Positions 23,656-32,292 of a DNA stretch of 36,866 bases are shown piece after piece. Origin of the DNA: Methanobacteriota archaeon. Lineage in GTDB: Archaea > Thermoplasmatota > Thermoplasmata > Lutacidiplasmatales > UBA184. A model generated the notes under the pieces. That model worked only from the letters and a program-made list of their open reading frames with translations. It was not told the DNA's origin and made no database searches. Both the position numbers and the translations under genes were made by a program. The stretch spans positions 1-36,866 of the forward strand of contig JABCYU010000006.1 of the NCBI GenBank assembly GCA_013290045.1. The letters run 5' to 3'. Every line of letters starts with the position of its first letter. Within the stretch, counting starts at the first letter, position 1.

Positions 23656-24786
23656 ATGGACGTTCCCTTGCGCGGCCTGGAAGGGGTCGTGATCGACCGC
23701 TCGGCGATCACCCTCGTCGAAGGCGAGACGGGCGGCCTCGTCTACCGGGGATTCCGGATCGACGAGCTGGTTCCCGGAGCCCCGTACGAATCGGTGGTCC
23801 ACCTGCTTCTCTGGGGAGAACCCCCCGAAGAGCAGCCACCACCCCGGCTGGTCCGGGAGCTGGCCAAACGTCGTTCCCTCCCCCGTCGGCTCGAGACGGT
23901 GGTGGACGCCCTGCCCCCCGGTCTTCCCCCGCTGGAAGCGCTCCGGACGATGATCTCGGCGATGGGCGACGGGTCGTTCCCCTATCCCCCGACCGACGAG
24001 CAGGCGTTCGACCTGATCGCCCAGACGCCGACGATGCTCACCCGGTACGTCCGGCGGTCCGCCGGTCTGACGGCGGTGGCGCCACGCCCCGATCTGGGTC
24101 ACGTCGCCAACTACCTGTACATGTTGAACGGCGTCCTCCCCGACGCCCGGCAGGTCCGCGCGCTCGAGGGGTATTTCGTTCTCCTGGCGGACCATGGGAT
24201 GAACGCCTCGACCTTCGCGCTGCGGGTCGTCCTCTCGACCCATTCGGACCTATTCTCGGGGGCCACCGCGGCGCTCGCCGCGCTCAAGGGGCCCCTGCAT
24301 GGCGGCGCCCCGTCGAAGGTCTCCGACATGCTCGATGCCGTCGGTTCGGCGGAGAACGCCGAACGTTGGGTCGCCCAGTCCCTCGCCCGCAAGGAGCGTC
24401 TCATGGGATTCGGCCATCGCGCCTACAAGGCCGAAGATCCGCGGGCCGTGATCCTGAAACAGATCGCCCGGGACGTGGCGGCCCCGGCCCGGCTGAAGCT
24501 CGCCGAACAGGTGGAGGAGGTGGCGCTCGCCGCCCTGGAGCGACAGCGACCCGGGCGACGGCTCTACACGAACGTCGAGTTCTACGGGGCGGTGGTACTC
24601 GAAGCCGTGGGGCTGCCGCGCAACTTGTTCACTCCGACGTTCGCGCTCGCGCGGACCGCCGGCTGGGGGGCTCACGGTCTCGAACAGGCCGCCGACAACC
24701 GCCTGATCCGGCCGGACATCGAGTACGTCGGGCCGGCGCCGGGCCGCCGCTGGCCGGAGCGATCCCCAACGGTCTCCCCCCCGTAG
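23656..24786 (+). CDS. Citrate synthase family protein
   Basis: MDVPLRGLEGVVIDRSAITLVEGETGGLVYRGFRIDEL...DHGMNASTFALRVVLST...GPLHGGAPSKV...MGFGHRAYKAEDPRA...NVEFYGAVVLEAVGLP. Confidence 0.93.
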   Translation: MDVPLRGLEGVVIDRSAITLVEGETGGLVYRGFRIDELVPGAPYESVVHLLLWGEPPEEQPPPRLVRELAKRRSLPRRLETVVDALPPGLPPLEALRTMISAMGDGSFPYPPTDEQAFDLIAQTPTMLTRYVRRSAGLTAVAPRPDLGHVANYLYMLNGVLPDARQVRALEGYFVLLADHGMNASTFALRVVLSTHSDLFSGATAALAALKGPLHGGAPSKVSDMLDAVGSAENAERWVAQSLARKERLMGFGHRAYKAEDPRAVILKQIARDVAAPARLKLAEQVEEVALAALERQRPGRRLYTNVEFYGAVVLEAVGLPRNLFTPTFALARTAGWGAHGLEQAADNRLIRPDIEYVGPAPGRRWPERSPTVSPP

Positions 24787-24810
24787 GGGGGGTGGGCCGT
24801 ACGGGCGCCC

Positions 24811-26712
24811 CTACGCCTTCCCCTTCCCGTCCCCCGATTCCTTGTCGACGACCTTGAACTCCGCATCGACCGGACCCGGGCCCGGACCCGTCGGCGTCGA
24901 CTCGTCGGGCGGCGGGGTCGAGGTCGTCGGCGGGGCGTCGGCCGCCGAGCTCTCCCCTGGTCGGACGTCCTGGTAGAGCTTCTGGGCGATCGCGTGCAGC
25001 GACCGGGTCAGCTCGTCGAAGAGGCGGGGCAGCTCGCTCGGCTCCTTCGCCGATAGGGCCGTGCGGATCGCCGCGACCTTCGCCCGCACGTCGGCGGCGT
25101 CCGTCTCGGAGATCTTCGCCTTGTTCTCCTCCAGGACCCGCTCGGCCTCGTAGGTCAACGTCTCGGCCTTGTTGCGGGCTTCGGCGGCCGACGCGCGCTG
25201 GCGGTCCTGCTCGGCGAACTCCGCGGCCTGCTTGAGCATCCGATCGACCTCGTCCTTCGTGAGCTTGTTGGACGCGGTGATCGTGATCCCCTGCTTCTTC
25301 GCCGTGGCGAGGTCCTTCGCCGAAACGTTCAGGATCCCGTTCGCGTCGATGTCGAAGGAGACCTCGATCTGCGGGGTCCCCCGAGGAGCCGGCGGGATGC
25401 CGGTGAGCATGAAGTCGCCGAGGGCGACGTTGTCCGCCGCCAGCGGTCGCTCCCCCTGGTAGACCTTGATCTCCACCGAGCTCTGGCTGTCGCTCGCCGT
25501 CGTGAAGATCTGGCTCTTGCGCGTGGGGATCGTCGTGTTCCGCTCGATGAGCTTGGTGAACACCCCGCCCAGCGTCTCGACCCCGAGGGAGAGCGGCGTC
25601 ACGTCGAGCAGCAGGACGTCTTTGACCTCGCCCGCGAGGACCCCGCCCTGGATCGCCGCTCCCATCGCGACGCACTCCATCGGGTCCACGCCGTGCTCGA
25701 TCGGACGCCCGACCTCCTGCTCGACCAGCTTCTGGACGATCGGCATCCGTGTCGGACCGCCGACGAGGACGATCCGGTCGACCTGCTCCTTGCCGAGCTT
25801 GGCGTCCTTCAGGGCCTGCTGGACCGGAGCGCGGCACCGTTCGAGGATCGGCCGAACGAGTTCCTCGAGCTTCGCCCGGGTGAGCTGGAGCGCGAGGTGC
25901 TTCGGCCCGTCCTGGGTGGCGGTGAGGAACGGGAGGTTGACCTGGGTATCGATCGTGGACGAGAGCTCGATCTTCGCCTTCTCGGCGGCGTCGCGGACGC
26001 GCTGCATCGCCATCTTGTCCTTCCGGATGTCGATGCTGCTCTCCTTCTGGAACTCGCCGGCGATGTACTCGGTGAGCGCGTTGTCCATGTCGGTCCCCCC
26101 GAGCTGGGTGTCCCCGCTCGTCGAGAGCACCTCGAAGACGCTCTCGCCGAAGTCCATGATCGTGACGTCGAGGGTTCCCCCTCCCAGATCGAACACGAGG
26201 ATCTTCTGGCTCTTTCCGGCCTTGTCGAGGCCGTAGGCGAGGCTCGCGGCGGTCGGCTCGTTGATGATCCGGACGACGTCGAGCCCGGCAATGGCGCCGG
26301 CGTCCTTCGTCGCCTGCCGCTGGTTGTCGTTGAAGTAGGCGGGAACGGTGATGACCGCCTTCTCGACCTTCTCCCCGAGGAACGCCTCGGCGTCCCGCTT
26401 GATCTTCTGGAGGAGGAAGGCGGAGAGCTGTTGGGGGGTGTACTCCTTCCCGTAGATCCGGTAGCGGTGGTCCGTTCCCATCTTCCGCTTGAAGGCGGAG
26501 ATGGTTCCCTCGGGATTGGAGACCGCCTGGCGGCGTGCGGGCTCGCCGACGATGAGCTGGCCGTCCTTCGTGAACGCCACGTACGAAGGGAACGCCTTGC
26601 CGCCACCGACGGTGGTCCCCTCGGCGCTCGGGATGATCACGGGCCGGCCTCCCTCGAGGAGGGAGGCGGCGGAGTTGCTGGTTCCTAGGTCGATTCCGAT
26701 GATCTTCGTCAT
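24811..26712 (-). CDS. dnaK: Molecular chaperone DnaK (Hsp70)
   Basis: [32 protein letters not shown]...[20 protein letters not shown]...[17 protein letters not shown]...[15 protein letters not shown]...[17 protein letters not shown]. Confidence 0.97.
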
Positions 26713-26788
26713 GGGTTTTTTCTCCTCGAAGACCTCGGGAGATTCTTCCCCCTCGATCCTCGGATTTGCATCATCGGAATGTATGCAC

Positions 26789-26801
26789 TACTATAAAAGC
26801 G
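26789..26801 (-). promoter_or_regulatory. TATA box for dnaK
   Basis: Minus strand reads CGCTTTTATAGTA about 80 nt upstream of the dnaK ATG; GGAGAAAAAACCC lies immediately before the start. Confidence 0.55.
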
Positions 26802-26932
26802 AGTGTGCGCCGAGGTTCTGCCCATTTCGTCTGGCGAACGTTCCCTCGGGAGAGCCGCAGCCATTCGGCCGGTCATCCGGGCCGACGATCCGGGGCTCGG
26901 ACGATAGCTCGCGATCGTAGCATCGACCCCTC

Positions 26933-27262
26933 TCAACGCGCCAGCCGAAGCCACCCGGCCAGCGGCCGAAGGCTCCGGTACAGTTCATTCCCCGAAGGGG
27001 TAAGGGCGTACGCCTTCACGGGCCCTCGGGGGCCGTCCGCAAGCTCTCTCCGTACGAGACGGGCGCGTTCCAGGGAACGCAACGTCGACGTCAAGGTAGC
27101 GGGGCTCACTCCGGAAAGGCACCTCTGGATCGGCCCGAAGCGCACGATCCCGTACTTCCCGAGAAGGGAGATCACGCAGACGGCCCATTTCTTCCCCACG
27201 ACGTCAATCAATCCGATGGGTGGGCAGGGGCACTCCAGTTCGCCCTCGCAGCACTGCGACAC
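26933..27262 (-). CDS. HxlR-family winged-HTH regulator with N-terminal Cys cluster
   Basis: 109 aa (GTG start 27262): MSQCCEGELECPCPPIGLIDVVGKKWAVCVISLLGKYGIVRFGPIQRCLSGVSPATLTSTLRSLERARLVRREL...VKAYALTPSGNELYRSLRPLAGWL. Confidence 0.82.
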   Translation of the reverse strand: MSQCCEGELECPCPPIGLIDVVGKKWAVCVISLLGKYGIVRFGPIQRCLSGVSPATLTSTLRSLERARLVRRELADGPRGPVKAYALTPSGNELYRSLRPLAGWLRLAR

Positions 27263-27293
27263 TCTGTCCGTACGTAGCGGCCCCTTATGAGCG

Positions 27294-27308
27294 CTTCAGC
27301 AATTGAAG
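27294..27308. promoter_or_regulatory. Inverted repeat in the HxlR / Cys-peptide divergent promoter (operator candidate)
   Basis: CTTCA-GCAAT-TGAAG, a 5+5+5 interrupted palindrome just downstream of a TATA-like CTTATGAG (27284-27291) and upstream of ATG 27323. Confidence 0.4.
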
Positions 27309-27322
27309 TGACAGAGGTACCT

Positions 27323-27409
27323 ATGGCCGAAGGAAAGTGTTGTGAGAAGGCCTGCTGCGTATGCGATCCGACGACCTGTCCGCCCGGCTGTTGTGACGAC
27401 TGCTGTTGA
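27323..27409 (+). CDS. 28-aa cysteine-rich (metallothionein-like) peptide, absent from the ORF track
   Basis: ATG GCC GAA GGA AAG TGT TGT GAG AAG GCC TGC TGC GTA TGC GAT CCG ACG ACC TGT CCG CCC GGC TGT TGT GAC GAC TGC TGT TGA = MAEGKCCEKACCVCDPTTCPPGCCDDCC; 10 Cys of 28 residues. In-frame ATG at 27287 would give a 12-aa N-terminal extension. The stop overlaps the TTG start of ArsC (TTGA). Confidence 0.75.
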   Translation: MAEGKCCEKACCVCDPTTCPPGCCDDCC

Positions 27410-27840
27410 CGACGGGTCGCACGGTCCTGTTCGTCTGCGTAGAGAACGCCGCCCGGTCCCTGATGGCGGAGGCGATCTTCAACGCCGATCCACCGACCGG
27501 TTGGCGGGCGGTCTCCGCGGGGACGAGGCCGGCCGCGTCTCCGAACGCCCGGACGGAACCGATGCTCGGGGAGATCGGACTGAGGCTCCCACCGCATCCT
27601 CCTCGGGAACTGACGCCGGAGATGATCGACTCCGCCTCGATGCGGGTCACGATGGGGTGCCTGAACGACGCCAGTTGCCCGGCCCGACTGAAATCCCGGG
27701 AACTTCGAGACTGGGCGCTCCCGGATCCAGCGCGGCTGGATGACGACGGGTTTCGAGGCGTCCGCGATGAAATCCAGCGGCGGGTGCGCCTCCTCTACGA
27801 CGAAGTTCGGGAATCCGCCTCGCCCCCGTCAACGGCCTGA
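27406..27840 (+). CDS. arsC: Low-molecular-weight-PTP-type arsenate reductase ArsC
   Basis: MTTGRTVLFVCVENAARSLMAEAIFNADPPTGWRAVSAGTRP... CX5R P-loop (CVENAAR) and MGCLNDASCP Cys pair typical of thioredoxin-coupled ArsC. Confidence 0.87.
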   Translation: MTTGRTVLFVCVENAARSLMAEAIFNADPPTGWRAVSAGTRPAASPNARTEPMLGEIGLRLPPHPPRELTPEMIDSASMRVTMGCLNDASCPARLKSRELRDWALPDPARLDDDGFRGVRDEIQRRVRLLYDEVRESASPPSTA

Positions 27841-27851
27841 CCCGGGGGACC

Positions 27852-28568
27852 TTGTTGAGACCCCCACTACTGACTCGACTGGGTGCGGAATTCGTTGGGA
27901 CTTCCGTTCTCGTCGGAATCGGGACGGGCGCAGTTGTCGGGGCTTCGAGGGTCGGAGGCGTCCCGCAGTGGGTGATGGCCGTCGCCTGGTTCTTCGCGGT
28001 ACTCCTCCCGATCCTGCTTTGCCTCCGGGTTTCCGGGGCCCACCTCAATCCTGCGGTGACGCTGGGCTTGGCCGTCAGTGGTAGGATGCCGAGGTCGGAG
28101 GCGCCGTCGTACGTCGCCGCCCAGTTCGCCGGGGCATTCTTTGGGAGTGCGGTGGTCTTGTTCTCGCTCGGAGACTTTGCCCACCTGGGAGCCACGACCC
28201 CGTCGGTCGGAAATCTCGCTACGGTGTTCGCTGGCGAGCTGCTGTTCAGCGGGGCCCTGATCGCCTCCGTGTTCGCGCTGGCGGATCGACCCGAGGGAGG
28301 GGTCGGCTGGCGGATCCTGTTACCTCCGGCGACCGTGGGGGTATCGACCTACGTCATCGGACCGATCACGGGGAGTTCGCTGAACCCTGCCCGGACCGTG
28401 GCCCCTGCCGTCCTCTCGGGCACGTACACCGACCTCGGAGTGTACCTCCTGGCGGTGCCGCTCGCAGCCATCCTCGTCGCGCTAATGTGGAGGAACGACG
28501 TGACGAACCTGCCGTCCAACGGCCGACGAGTCGCCGCCGACCCGAAGGGAGTCGGACCGGCCGATTAG
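27852..28568 (+). CDS. MIP-family aquaporin/aquaglyceroporin (AqpS-like candidate)
   Basis: Two NPA boxes (GAHLNPAVT, GSSLNPART) in a six-TM protein; follows arsC by 11 bp. Confidence 0.88.
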   Translation: MLRPPLLTRLGAEFVGTSVLVGIGTGAVVGASRVGGVPQWVMAVAWFFAVLLPILLCLRVSGAHLNPAVTLGLAVSGRMPRSEAPSYVAAQFAGAFFGSAVVLFSLGDFAHLGATTPSVGNLATVFAGELLFSGALIASVFALADRPEGGVGWRILLPPATVGVSTYVIGPITGSSLNPARTVAPAVLSGTYTDLGVYLLAVPLAAILVALMWRNDVTNLPSNGRRVAADPKGVGPAD

Positions 28569-28681
28569 GTCACGGAACCGTTGGCGGGTTTCCGGTTGGG
28601 CGCCCACAGCAGGCGGGTAGCGCCGCCGGAAGCGAGCCCCCCGCGGCCGCCGTCAAATAGCCCGGCGCCCCTCGGGCCCTG

Positions 28682-29872
28682 ATGCCGAGGCCGCGCGGCC
28701 CATGGACCGTGGAAGCCCGGCGCGTGTTGCCCGCCATGCGGGCCTGGCGGGCCGCCCTCCACCAGGAGCCGGAACTCGCCAACGAGGAGCGACGCACCCA
28801 GGCGAAGATCGTGGAGGCGCTCAACGCCCTCGACCTCCCCCCCGCGACTTTCGAAGGGTTCACGGGCGTCAAGGCCGTGATCGGCGCCGACCGCCCTGGC
28901 GCGGTGGTGGCGCTGAGGGCCGATATGGACGGGCTCCCGGTCAGTGAACGGAGCGGTCTGCCTTTCGCCTCGCGAACACCGGGACGGATGCACGCTTGCG
29001 GCCACGACGTCCACATGGCCTGCCTCCTCGGGGCGGCGGCGGCGCTGAAGCGTCGCGAGGGCAGCCTGCGCGGCCCCGTGGTGCTCCTCTTCCAACCCGC
29101 CGAGGAAGAGGGGAACCGGGGCGGAGCCCAGCCGTTCCTCGAGCTCGGGGCGTTCGAGCGGCCGAAGGTCGATTTCGTGGTCGGCCAGCACGTGGCCCCG
29201 GAGATCCCCCTCGGCCACATCGGCTGGAAGAAGGGAGCGATGATGGCCGCCGCGGACCACGTGATCATCCGGGTTCGAGGGCGTGCCGGGCACGCCGCCT
29301 ACCCGCACGCCGGGCCGGATGCGGTCCTGACGGCCGCCGAGATCATCACCGGCCTGCAGGCGATCGTGAGCCGGGTCCGCGACCCGGTCGATCCGGTCGT
29401 GATCAGCATCGCCTCCGTCCACGGCGGCACCCGCCACAACGTCCTCCCCGAGGAGGTGCTCCTCGAGGGCACGATCCGGACCTTCCTCCCCTCGACCCGG
29501 CGGCAGATGGAGAACGCACTACGACGGCGGGTGGCCCACATCGCGGCGAGCAACGGCGCCTCGGCCCGGGTGACCATCCGGCACGGCTACCCGGTCACCT
29601 TCAATCCGCCGGCCACGACCGAGGTGATCGTCCAGGCGCTCGCCGAGGAGTTCGGCGAGGAGGCGGTCCAGGAGATCGAGCGGCCGGTGATGGGAGCCGA
29701 GGACTTCTCGCGGTATCTCGAGCGGGTGCCGGGAAGCTTCTTGTTCTTGGGCGTAGGAAGGGGGAGCGTGCCCGAGTCGTTGCACTCCCCGTCGTTCGCG
29801 CCACCGGAGGAGTCGCTGGTCTATGGCTGCGCCGCCCTCCTCGCGGCGACCGCCGGGCTTCAGAGGAGCTGA
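28682..29872 (+). CDS. M20 family amidohydrolase/peptidase (IAA-amino acid hydrolase / carboxypeptidase-like)
   Basis: MRAWRAALHQEPELANEE...VVALRADMDGLPVSE...GRMHACGHDVHMACLLGAA...LLFQPAEEEGNRGGAQ...GTRHNVLPEEVLLEGTIRTF...MGAEDFSRYLERVPGSFLFLG. Confidence 0.92.
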   Translation: MPRPRGPWTVEARRVLPAMRAWRAALHQEPELANEERRTQAKIVEALNALDLPPATFEGFTGVKAVIGADRPGAVVALRADMDGLPVSERSGLPFASRTPGRMHACGHDVHMACLLGAAAALKRREGSLRGPVVLLFQPAEEEGNRGGAQPFLELGAFERPKVDFVVGQHVAPEIPLGHIGWKKGAMMAAADHVIIRVRGRAGHAAYPHAGPDAVLTAAEIITGLQAIVSRVRDPVDPVVISIASVHGGTRHNVLPEEVLLEGTIRTFLPSTRRQMENALRRRVAHIAASNGASARVTIRHGYPVTFNPPATTEVIVQALAEEFGEEAVQEIERPVMGAEDFSRYLERVPGSFLFLGVGRGSVPESLHSPSFAPPEESLVYGCAALLAATAGLQRS

Positions 29873-31092
29873 TGACGGCCGTCGACGCCCTCCGCGCCCG
29901 GTTTCCGGCGCTCCGCGATCGTCCCGACGGCCCCACCCCGGCCTACCTCGACTCGGCGTGCATGAGCCTCGTCCCCCTCGAGGTCCTCGACGCCATGGAG
30001 GAGTACTATCGCGACTATCCCGGATGCGCTGGGCGCTCCCTCCACCGGTTCGCGGAGGAGGTCGGCCACCGATACGAAGGGGCGCGGGCGGGCCTCGCGA
30101 AGTTCCTGGGGGCCGAGAGCCCGGAGGCGGTCGTGTTCCTTCGGAACGCCTCGGAGGCGATCAACCTGGTCGCCCAGGGGCTCCCCTGGAAGGCGGGCGA
30201 CGCGGTCCTGATCTCCGACCAGGAGCACAACTCCAACCTGATCGTCTGGCAGCGGCTGGCGAGCGAGCGGGGGATCCGGATCGAGGTCCTCAACCTCCCT
30301 CCCGGCGGGGGATTCCCTTCGGCCGAGTATGAGGAAGCGCTGAAACGTCAGGTGAGACTGGTGAGCCTGTTCCACACCTCGAACCTGGACGGTCGGACGC
30401 TCCCGGTCCGGGAGATCGTCGAACGGGCCCACGCCCACGGCGCGCGGGTGCTGCTGGACGGCTGCCAGGCCGCCCCTCACGTACCGGTGCGGCTACGCGA
30501 GTGGGGGGTCGATTATTATGCGATCAGCGCCCACAAGATGCTCGGTCCGACGGGGACCGGGGCCCTGGCCGGGACCGCCCACTCCCTCGGGGACCTGCGA
30601 CCCCTGCTCGTGGGCGGCGAGACCGTCGAATGGTCGACGATGACGGAACACCAGCTCCGACCGCCGCCCCACCGATTCGAAGCCGGGCTCCAGAACTATG
30701 CCGGCGTGCTCGGGGTCCACGCGGCCGTCCGGTTCCTGGAGCGCGCCGGCCTCGACGAGATCCGCGCCCACGACCTCGCCCTCAACCGCAAGGTCTCCAA
30801 GGCGCTCGAGGGAGAGCGCCGGGTCCACGTGCTCGGCCCCACCGACCCCGGCGATCGGCCGAGCATCTACGCGTTCCACCTCGACGGCGTCGACGCGAAC
30901 GACGCGGCCCTGTTCCTCGATGAAGGTTATCAGGTCCTGGTCCGCTCCGGGATGCACTGCGTCCACTCGTGGTATCGCAAGCGCAACCTTCCCGGCAACG
31001 TCCGGGCCTCGTTCTACCTGTACAATGACGAGCGGGACGCCGATCGGCTCATCGACGGCGTCCGCGAGATGATCGAGAAGATCCCGGCGTGA
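29872..31092 (+). CDS. Class V PLP aminotransferase, cysteine desulfurase-like
   Basis: MTAVDALRARFPALRDRPDGPTPAYLDSACMSLVP...LISDQEHNSNLIVWQRLA...VLLDGCQAAPHVPVRLREWGVDYYAISAHKMLGPTGTGAL...VLVRSGMHCVHSWYRK; ATG overlaps upstream TGA. Confidence 0.87.
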   Translation: MTAVDALRARFPALRDRPDGPTPAYLDSACMSLVPLEVLDAMEEYYRDYPGCAGRSLHRFAEEVGHRYEGARAGLAKFLGAESPEAVVFLRNASEAINLVAQGLPWKAGDAVLISDQEHNSNLIVWQRLASERGIRIEVLNLPPGGGFPSAEYEEALKRQVRLVSLFHTSNLDGRTLPVREIVERAHAHGARVLLDGCQAAPHVPVRLREWGVDYYAISAHKMLGPTGTGALAGTAHSLGDLRPLLVGGETVEWSTMTEHQLRPPPHRFEAGLQNYAGVLGVHAAVRFLERAGLDEIRAHDLALNRKVSKALEGERRVHVLGPTDPGDRPSIYAFHLDGVDANDAALFLDEGYQVLVRSGMHCVHSWYRKRNLPGNVRASFYLYNDERDADRLIDGVREMIEKIPA

Positions 31093-31111
31093 ACCGGGGC
31101 CGTTCGGACGG

Positions 31112-31927
31112 CTACCGGTACATCGGCGGCGAGGCCGTCTGGGGCCGCTCCGTGTGGCCCTTCTCCTGCGCGTGCCGCTGGATCGACAAGAGCTGCTGCT
31201 CGATCCGCTCCGCTTCGTGGTAGAGGGGCACCGGGTCGAGCGGGGTCCGCAACAGGATGTGGTTGATCGTCTCGATGACCTTCGCCGCCGCGCGGGCGTC
31301 CGGATAATCGGACTGGGCCTCGGCGAGGAACGTCAGCACGTCGAAGCCGCGGCGCCGGCCTTCGTTGAGGAGGACCCCGGCGATCCCGGTGATGACCCCC
31401 TCGGTGAACGGGAGCATGTTGGGCTCGACATAGAGGTCCCGCGCCTTCCGGGTGCTCGCCACCCCGTAGACCTTCACGTCGGAGAGCTTCGGTGGCCGCC
31501 CGCGTCCGACGTCGCCCGCCGGCTTGTCGACGACCAGCCCCTCCGGCGACACGAGCATGGAGCAGCGCTGCTCCTGGACCCAATCCATGATCGAGGTCGC
31601 CAGCGGATGGATGATCGCCGGGGCGGGATGGAACTCCGAGACGAACGCCACAATCCGGTCGGCGACCCGTCCGGCCCGGTCCGCGGCCGGGCGACCCGCG
31701 TAGATCCGTACCGGGTGCTGGGGGTTGCCGCCCCGGACGAGCGAGACGGTGGGAAACGCCGGGGACTCGACGATCCCGATCTGTTCCATCTCGAGGGTGT
31801 CGATGAGGTAGTTGGCGACGATGGAGCTGACGAGGCCGACCGACGGGAAGCCGTCGATCACGATCGCGCCCTCGACGTCGACCCGCTTGAGCTCGTAGAT
31901 CCGGACCTGGTCCGGTTGCATCGTCAT
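31112..31927 (-). CDS. PAC2 (proteasome assembly chaperone-like) family protein
   Basis: MTMQPDQVRIYELKRVDVEGAIVIDGFPSVGLVSSIVANYLIDTLEMEQIGIVESPAFPTVSLVRGGNPQHPVRIYAG...FTEGVITGIAGVLLNEGRRRGFDVLTFLAEA; start ATG 31927 inside a longer track ORF. Confidence 0.88.
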   Translation of the reverse strand: MTMQPDQVRIYELKRVDVEGAIVIDGFPSVGLVSSIVANYLIDTLEMEQIGIVESPAFPTVSLVRGGNPQHPVRIYAGRPAADRAGRVADRIVAFVSEFHPAPAIIHPLATSIMDWVQEQRCSMLVSPEGLVVDKPAGDVGRGRPPKLSDVKVYGVASTRKARDLYVEPNMLPFTEGVITGIAGVLLNEGRRRGFDVLTFLAEAQSDYPDARAAAKVIETINHILLRTPLDPVPLYHEAERIEQQLLSIQRHAQEKGHTERPQTASPPMYR

Positions 31928-31932
31928 GGTTT

Positions 31933-32292
31933 CTACAGCGACTTCTCGACGATCTGGCCAAGTTCGCGGCTGATGAGGTCGACGATATCCTTCGTCAGGG
32001 CGGCCCGGACGTTCGGGGGAACCGTCGCCATGCCGAGACGGGCCGTGCACGTCCCGACCCGGATGAGCGCGGCGTACTCCATCGCCCGCGCCTCGAGGAG
32101 CTGGCGCACCGAGTCTTTCAGGTCTCGGGCCAGCTGCGGGTCCTCCTCTAGCGTCCGTTCGATGTGGCGCCGGATCTCGTCCTTGATGATGTCGCGCGTC
32201 GCCTCCCGGACGATCTCCTCCGGCCGCAGCAGGTCGCGGGTACTCTTCATCAGGGTGTCGATGGGCTCGCCCGCCGAGGACCCGTCCGGCAT
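31933..32292 (-). CDS. Hypothetical helical protein
   Basis: MPDGSSAGEPIDTLMKSTRDLLRPEEIVREATRDIIKDEIRRHIERTLEEDPQLARDLKDSVRQLLEARAMEYAALIRVGTCTARLG...; six nucleotides from the PAC2 gene start, same strand. Confidence 0.65.
   Translation of the reverse strand: MPDGSSAGEPIDTLMKSTRDLLRPEEIVREATRDIIKDEIRRHIERTLEEDPQLARDLKDSVRQLLEARAMEYAALIRVGTCTARLGMATVPPNVRAALTKDIVDLISRELGQIVEKSL

Follow-up and report, generated by a model that had tools for sequence, protein, structure and literature searches.

How could a cell rid itself of arsenate with an arsenate reductase and a passive channel, and no efflux pump beside them? This question is raised by a compact archaeal locus (positions 26933-28568) in the window, that is, the whole 36,866-nucleotide stretch of DNA analyzed here, which lies on contig 6 of a 2.23-Mb genome in 183 contigs, about 90% complete. 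From left to right, the locus consists of a divergent gene for an HxlR-family regulator on the minus strand, a common promoter and, on the plus strand, the genes for a cysteine-rich peptide, ArsC and a MIP channel. This content, a divergent HxlR followed by a tightly packed Cys peptide, ArsC and a MIP with two NPA boxes, had been proposed in an earlier note, and matches to PF01638, LMWPc and PF00230 together with an ORF holding ten cysteines bore it out. Judged from sequence comparison, the locus is probably an arsenite-inducible, pump-less operon for arsenate detoxification. In the mechanism that we propose, HxlR would repress the promoter by binding a palindrome between a TATA-like box and the transcription start, and binding of As(III) to the HxlR cysteines would release it; ArsC would reduce arsenate to arsenite, the small thiol-rich peptide would bind and buffer cytoplasmic As(III), and neutral As(OH)3 would leave the cell down its own gradient via the aquaglyceroporin-type channel. 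The gene identities, the correspondence of regulator and operator, the alternation of MIP with Acr3 and of HxlR with ArsR, the clade and filter of the channel, and the coding nature and site-specificity of the peptide were computed. Our verdict is that the locus represents a genuine variant of the AqpS-like unit, widespread and coherent in function, and that the peptide is its most surprising part.

Gene content and related arsC loci

The ArsC of the locus (27406-27840, plus strand, TTG start) matched LMWPc with 68.8 bits and has the CX5R loop, the two distal redox cysteines and the DP motif of thioredoxin-type arsenate reductases. Its P-loop reads CVENAARS, and the P-loop Cys, Cys85 and Cys91 were all invariant in 17 aligned sequences (full set of invariant residues: C11, R17, C85, C91, D107 and P108). 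Because its scores were far under the cut-offs of the curated NCBIfam ArsC models, neither of which it passed (TIGR02691, 40 bits against 174; PRK13530, 49 against 215), we describe it as a divergent ArsC. These low scores, as well as the Pfam name LMWPc, could be taken to mean that the protein is not an arsenate reductase but a low-molecular-weight protein phosphatase. We consider this extremely unlikely, since the second and third Cys (C85 and C91) are invariant, the best solved structures are arsenate reductases, with Archaeoglobus ArsC (1y1l) as the best match, and the partners of the gene in relatives are Acr3, ArsM and ArsR.

Relatives of this ArsC were drawn from public genomes and 400 genomes assigned to the class Thermoplasmata; with an ArsC profile that we built, 95 distinct loci exceeded 185 bits. 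The gene directly after arsC encoded a MIP in 63 of these loci and Acr3 in 28, never both together, and was unassigned in the other four. The regulator was HxlR in 44 loci and ArsR in 36, none being found in 15, and ArsM was encoded upstream of arsC in 33. The relatives' partner proteins exceeded the cut-offs of the corresponding models: Acr3 with 387 and 384 bits (cut-off 282.8), ArsM with 298 and 315 bits (cut-off 263) and ArsR with 82 and 85 bits (cut-off 55, subfamily model). On well-supported branches of the ArsC tree there were at least four changes of transporter, at least seven of regulator, at least ten of ArsM and at least ten of peptide presence, and the putative ars parts are shuffled among relatives yet kept at arsC. 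Since MIP alternates with Acr3 and HxlR with ArsR, often with arsM alongside, the channel, HxlR and ArsC belong to arsenic operons, and this alternation lends support to the proposal of a pump-less arsenic locus of ArsC and MIP under HxlR. A further arrangement was observed in Rhodococcus (L039-L055), where as many as three arsC genes in tandem come after an Acr3 gene.

The lack of an efflux pump, also part of the original proposal, held for the locus itself and, with regard to Acr3, for the window's genome: no Acr3 was found in the assembly (about 90% complete), and most Acr3 genes found in the family of this genome sit beside arsC on the same contig. There was likewise no ArsM above cut-off in the window's genome. 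As a statement about the whole genome the claim needs amending, since one permease of the CitMHS/ArsB superfamily (CitMHS/ArsB/MamN-like) is encoded away from the locus (G000:C70:5109-6188). This permease, a PF02040 match, was set aside as an arsenite pump, with 186 bits for CitMHS versus 77 for ArsB and 106 bits against an NCBIfam ArsB cut-off of 457; it could still export arsenite.

The flanking genes (window 23656-31936) were called by codon-usage scoring and family profiles in place of longest-ORF calling, antisense frames being open in this high-GC DNA. They encode citrate synthase, Hsp70, an M20 peptidase, a class-V aminotransferase and PAC2 proteins, and Hsp70 and M20 genes also flank one of the related loci (L004).

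A channel in the place of the pump

The MIP gene (27852-28568, plus strand, TTG start) matched PF00230 with 110 bits, and its product has the two NPA boxes and the membrane helices of the MIP family, with a predicted fold of pLDDT 86. It adjoins arsC in an operon without ArsB or Acr3, which makes the locus a pump-less pairing of arsC with an aquaglyceroporin-type channel. MIP fold and NPA boxes alone do not tell the substrate, and the protein might be an ordinary water or glycerol channel whose position after arsC is incidental. The earlier note had named just this, a MIP grouping with ordinary water and glycerol channels and unlinked to arsC, as the result that would speak against it, and the tree that we built gave the opposite one. 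In its 95 rows, 61 ars-linked MIPs including that of the window formed a single clade with a support of 100/100, apart both from the paralogues encoded in these genomes and from two thaumarchaeal arsC-linked MIPs. Of the 95 related arsC genes, 63 have this MIP directly behind them. The selectivity filter was read by alignment with GlpF and AqpZ. It is W39-T159-S168-R174 in the window's MIP and the same in 60 of the 61 (the other one being WTTR); the paralogous MIPs carry PGAR, FNAR, FHTR and similar filters. An almost invariant filter in proteins that are elsewhere 48-68% identical to the window's MIP indicates a dedicated substrate, and the small residues at two of its positions would suit a solute the size of glycerol, As(OH)3 for example. 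The separate clade, the fixed filter and the alternation of MIP with Acr3 directly after arsC across the 95 loci all argue against an ordinary channel in an incidental position, which we regard as very unlikely; conduction of As(OH)3 outward by this MIP appears probable. A plasmid search with the window's MIP returned distant MIPs only, below 60% identity.

Pump-less resistance by ArsC and a MIP is already known. In the ars operon of Sinorhizobium meliloti the aquaglyceroporin AqpS replaces the efflux pump beside ArsC (Yang et al. 2005, reviewed in PMC6205960 and PMC4435449), 18 bacterial ars-operon MIPs have been listed (PMC4435449), and AQP-ArsC fusion proteins have been described in Salinispora and Mycobacterium (PMC9775063, PMC6205960). 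By gene content, the window's locus is like the AqpS operon in having ArsC and an aquaglyceroporin in the pump's place, but it is archaeal, has HxlR instead of ArsR, an extra Cys peptide and a WTSR filter, and its MIP belongs to a clade apart from the paralogous and thaumarchaeal MIPs compared. With the AQP-ArsC fusions it shares the coupling of a channel to arsenate reduction, whereas here the two are separate polypeptides in the opposite order (arsC, then MIP), with a different regulator and an added Cys peptide. The ars-MIP profile scored fusion-like MIPs (L052 and L059-L070) at no more than 35-56 bits. Acr3-type ars operons have a closely related ArsC with HxlR or ArsR, and differ in that the same slot holds a pump instead of a channel. 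We found no paper joining Thermoplasmata, arsenic, ArsC and aquaporin in the open literature, an absence that is weak evidence. If our reading is true, channel-based arsenic export extends to archaea, with channel and pump swapping repeatedly at one slot, and the natural combinations in the 95 loci make it directly testable how cells can be protected by a passive channel that admits the same poison.

In two thaumarchaeal genomes (L036 and L037), the MIP encoded behind arsC belongs to another clade and has a PIAR filter; the pairing of arsC with MIP may therefore have had more than one origin among archaea.

The HxlR regulator and its promoter palindrome

The regulator gene (26933-27262, minus strand, GTG start) encodes a winged-helix protein of the HxlR family (PF01638, 50.4 bits, cut-off 20.8). 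HxlR was the sole Pfam or NCBIfam model above cut-off, and the protein was not assigned to ArsR/SmtB. The best solved match of its AlphaFold model (pLDDT 81) was Bacillus subtilis HxlR (7bzd), with QsrR and YodB also matched, and the best NCBIfam matches, which stayed below cut-off, were the redox regulators RrpA and RrpB. Cys11, Cys13 and Cys29 were invariant in 43/43 ars-linked HxlRs, and C11 and C29 are absent from the four other HxlRs of the window's genome. We rejected this triad as proof of arsenic sensing, since a similar Cys motif occurs in HxlRs without an arsC neighbour; for the same reason we read the motif as a thiol-sensor signature. The window's HxlR is like the thiol sensors YodB, QsrR, HypR and B. 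subtilis HxlR in its fold and N-terminal Cys, and differs from them by the additional C11 and C29, its location in an ars operon and a palindrome of its own.

The promoter shared by the two transcription directions contains a 19-bp palindrome, CGCTTCA-N5-TGAAGTG (27292-27310), which the earlier note did not mention and which was expected 0.00 times in shuffles. It lies three bases after a TTAT (27285-27288, plus strand) that is conserved in relatives and may serve as TATA-like box; further upstream is a conserved element, CGTACGTAG(C) (27269-27278, plus strand), present in nearly all HxlR-type promoters. In the family, the palindrome has the form CACTTCA-N5-TGAAGTG, downstream of a TTAT-like box, and its presence (with up to two mismatches) follows the regulator: 26/26 HxlR-MIP, 4/4 HxlR-ArsM-MIP and 8/13 HxlR-Acr3 loci have it, against 0/36 ArsR loci. 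A search with a spacer of 4 bases gave no match, the actual spacer being 5. Allowing one mismatch, the palindrome occurs once in the window's genome, at 27292-27310, and together with the TTA box it was matched 34 times in 103 genomes of the family versus 0 for a reversed control. We presume that it is the HxlR operator. Two loci (L085 and L109) have the palindrome without an adjacent HxlR, and HxlR is encoded elsewhere in the same genomes, so the regulator may act in trans. In one of these genomes (G108), an HxlR gene lies beside an arsC split over two frames (L257:1974-2916), and an operon of palindrome, peptide, arsC and MIP without HxlR lies on another contig (L109), an arrangement that suggests control in trans.

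The structural matches to B. subtilis HxlR, QsrR and YodB, the sub-threshold RrpA and RrpB matches and a Cys motif common to HxlRs without an arsC neighbour would all fit a sensor of redox state or electrophiles, as YodB, QsrR, HypR and B. subtilis HxlR are. The operon would then answer general thiol-reactive stress, with ArsC still acting on arsenate and the peptide serving as a general thiol or soft-metal (Cu, Cd, Hg) buffer. We judge this unlikely, given that HxlR swaps repeatedly with ArsR before the same arsC, arsM, MIP and Acr3 genes, and that the genome has a single copy of the palindrome, located at arsC, instead of copies at several thiol-stress genes. Arsenic sensing by HxlR is inferred mainly from its exchange with ArsR, and As(III) is quite likely to be the inducer. 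If this is true, a new regulator family is added to arsenic sensing; in the open literature we found no paper joining HxlR, arsenic and arsenite, and no description of such a unit under HxlR or of the hypervariable thiol peptide, although such absence is weak evidence.

Additionally, in the Thermoplasmata family f19 (L246, L247 and L262), a distant HxlR with a CLC motif is divergent to arsC, and the link between HxlR and arsC may predate the family of the window's genome.

The cysteine-rich peptide

The peptide gene (27323-27409, plus strand) encodes 28 residues, of which ten are Cys (MAEGKCCEKACCVCDPTTCPPGCCDDCC). A GAGG at 27314-27317 (plus strand), five nucleotides before the ATG and with similar sequences in relatives, is its probable ribosome-binding site. 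Overlap of its TGA stop with the TTG from which arsC is read suggests that translation of the two genes is coupled. A longer Cys ORF from an ATG at 27287 was rejected, as this ATG lies within the TATA-like box, the palindrome would fall inside the gene, and in many relatives the only possible start is the later ATG, after GAGG. Of 85 ORFs in the window that begin with ATG and encode 20-45 aa, only the peptide gene has eight or more Cys codons. Peptides in 25 loci, highly variable and mostly coupled to arsC, contain 250 Cys in 864 residues (29%); they are about 22-40 residues long and have up to 8-9 Cys in a row, many ending with a CPPGCCxxC block and others carrying runs such as CCCCCCCC. A scan of 669 kb (ORFs of 20-45 aa, at least eight Cys and at least 25% Cys) gave 30 matches, including loci counted twice in two overlapping sources, all of them at this type of promoter. 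Differences per pair at the three codon positions of the C-terminal block were 0.09, 0.11 and 0.45, a supporting result only, the block having been chosen by its motif. The peptide is a real coding sequence and is site-specific. It had no match in Pfam or NCBIfam and was not assigned to a metallothionein family. By analogy, it is like bacterial metallothioneins and phytochelatins in being short, Cys-dense and presumably metal(loid)-binding, but these peptides are hypervariable, have Cys runs of up to 8-9, are ribosomally encoded and are mostly coupled to arsC.

Short, variable, just 5' of arsC and mostly overlapping it, the peptide might instead be a functionless regulatory leader, whose translation or stalling (when cysteine or cysteinyl-tRNA is scarce, or in the presence of arsenite) tunes arsC. 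Two cassettes of HxlR, palindrome and peptide have no arsC behind them (L259, 424-880, and L260, 935-1450; peptides MPTTRGSDGRCDPSCCPPGCCDE and MTERPPKDRCCTRTTECTADGPCECVEECCCCCSDGSGPPSRR), their genomes carrying arsC elsewhere. Furthermore, in L131 an HxlR gene, a palindrome and a peptide with a nine-Cys run are followed by a second palindrome and arsM-arsC-MIP. The peptide is therefore a unit of its own, and these arrangements, together with the Cys density, make a mere leader function quite unlikely.

In HxlR loci without ArsM, the peptide was present in 20/27 with MIP versus 2/13 with Acr3 (P = 0.0007); over all MIP and Acr3 loci, peptide or ArsM was present in 46/63 with MIP versus 10/28 with Acr3 (P = 0.001), both tests ignoring kinship; the repeated changes on the ArsC tree make a single ancestor an unlikely explanation of these associations. 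As a passive channel also admits external arsenite, a sink (the thiol peptide) or a converter (ArsM) would suit a channel more than a pump. We lean slightly towards binding of As(III) by the peptide. Chances seem evenly balanced for the broader reading, that hypervariable ribosomal poly-cysteine peptides, under HxlR arsenic sensors of a novel class, are the As(III) sink that makes leaky channel export workable, and that the peptide is also a stand-alone arsenite-inducible module without arsC. If true, this uncovers a group of very small thiol peptides that escape profile searches.

By the criteria used, seven HxlR-MIP loci are without a peptide. In L005 and L030 the peptide position is taken by a short ORF poor in Cys or devoid of it, and in L033 a short ORF between palindrome and arsC, at the place that the peptide or arsM takes in other loci, resembles the C-terminal end of ArsM (33 bits) and is apparently a decayed arsM.
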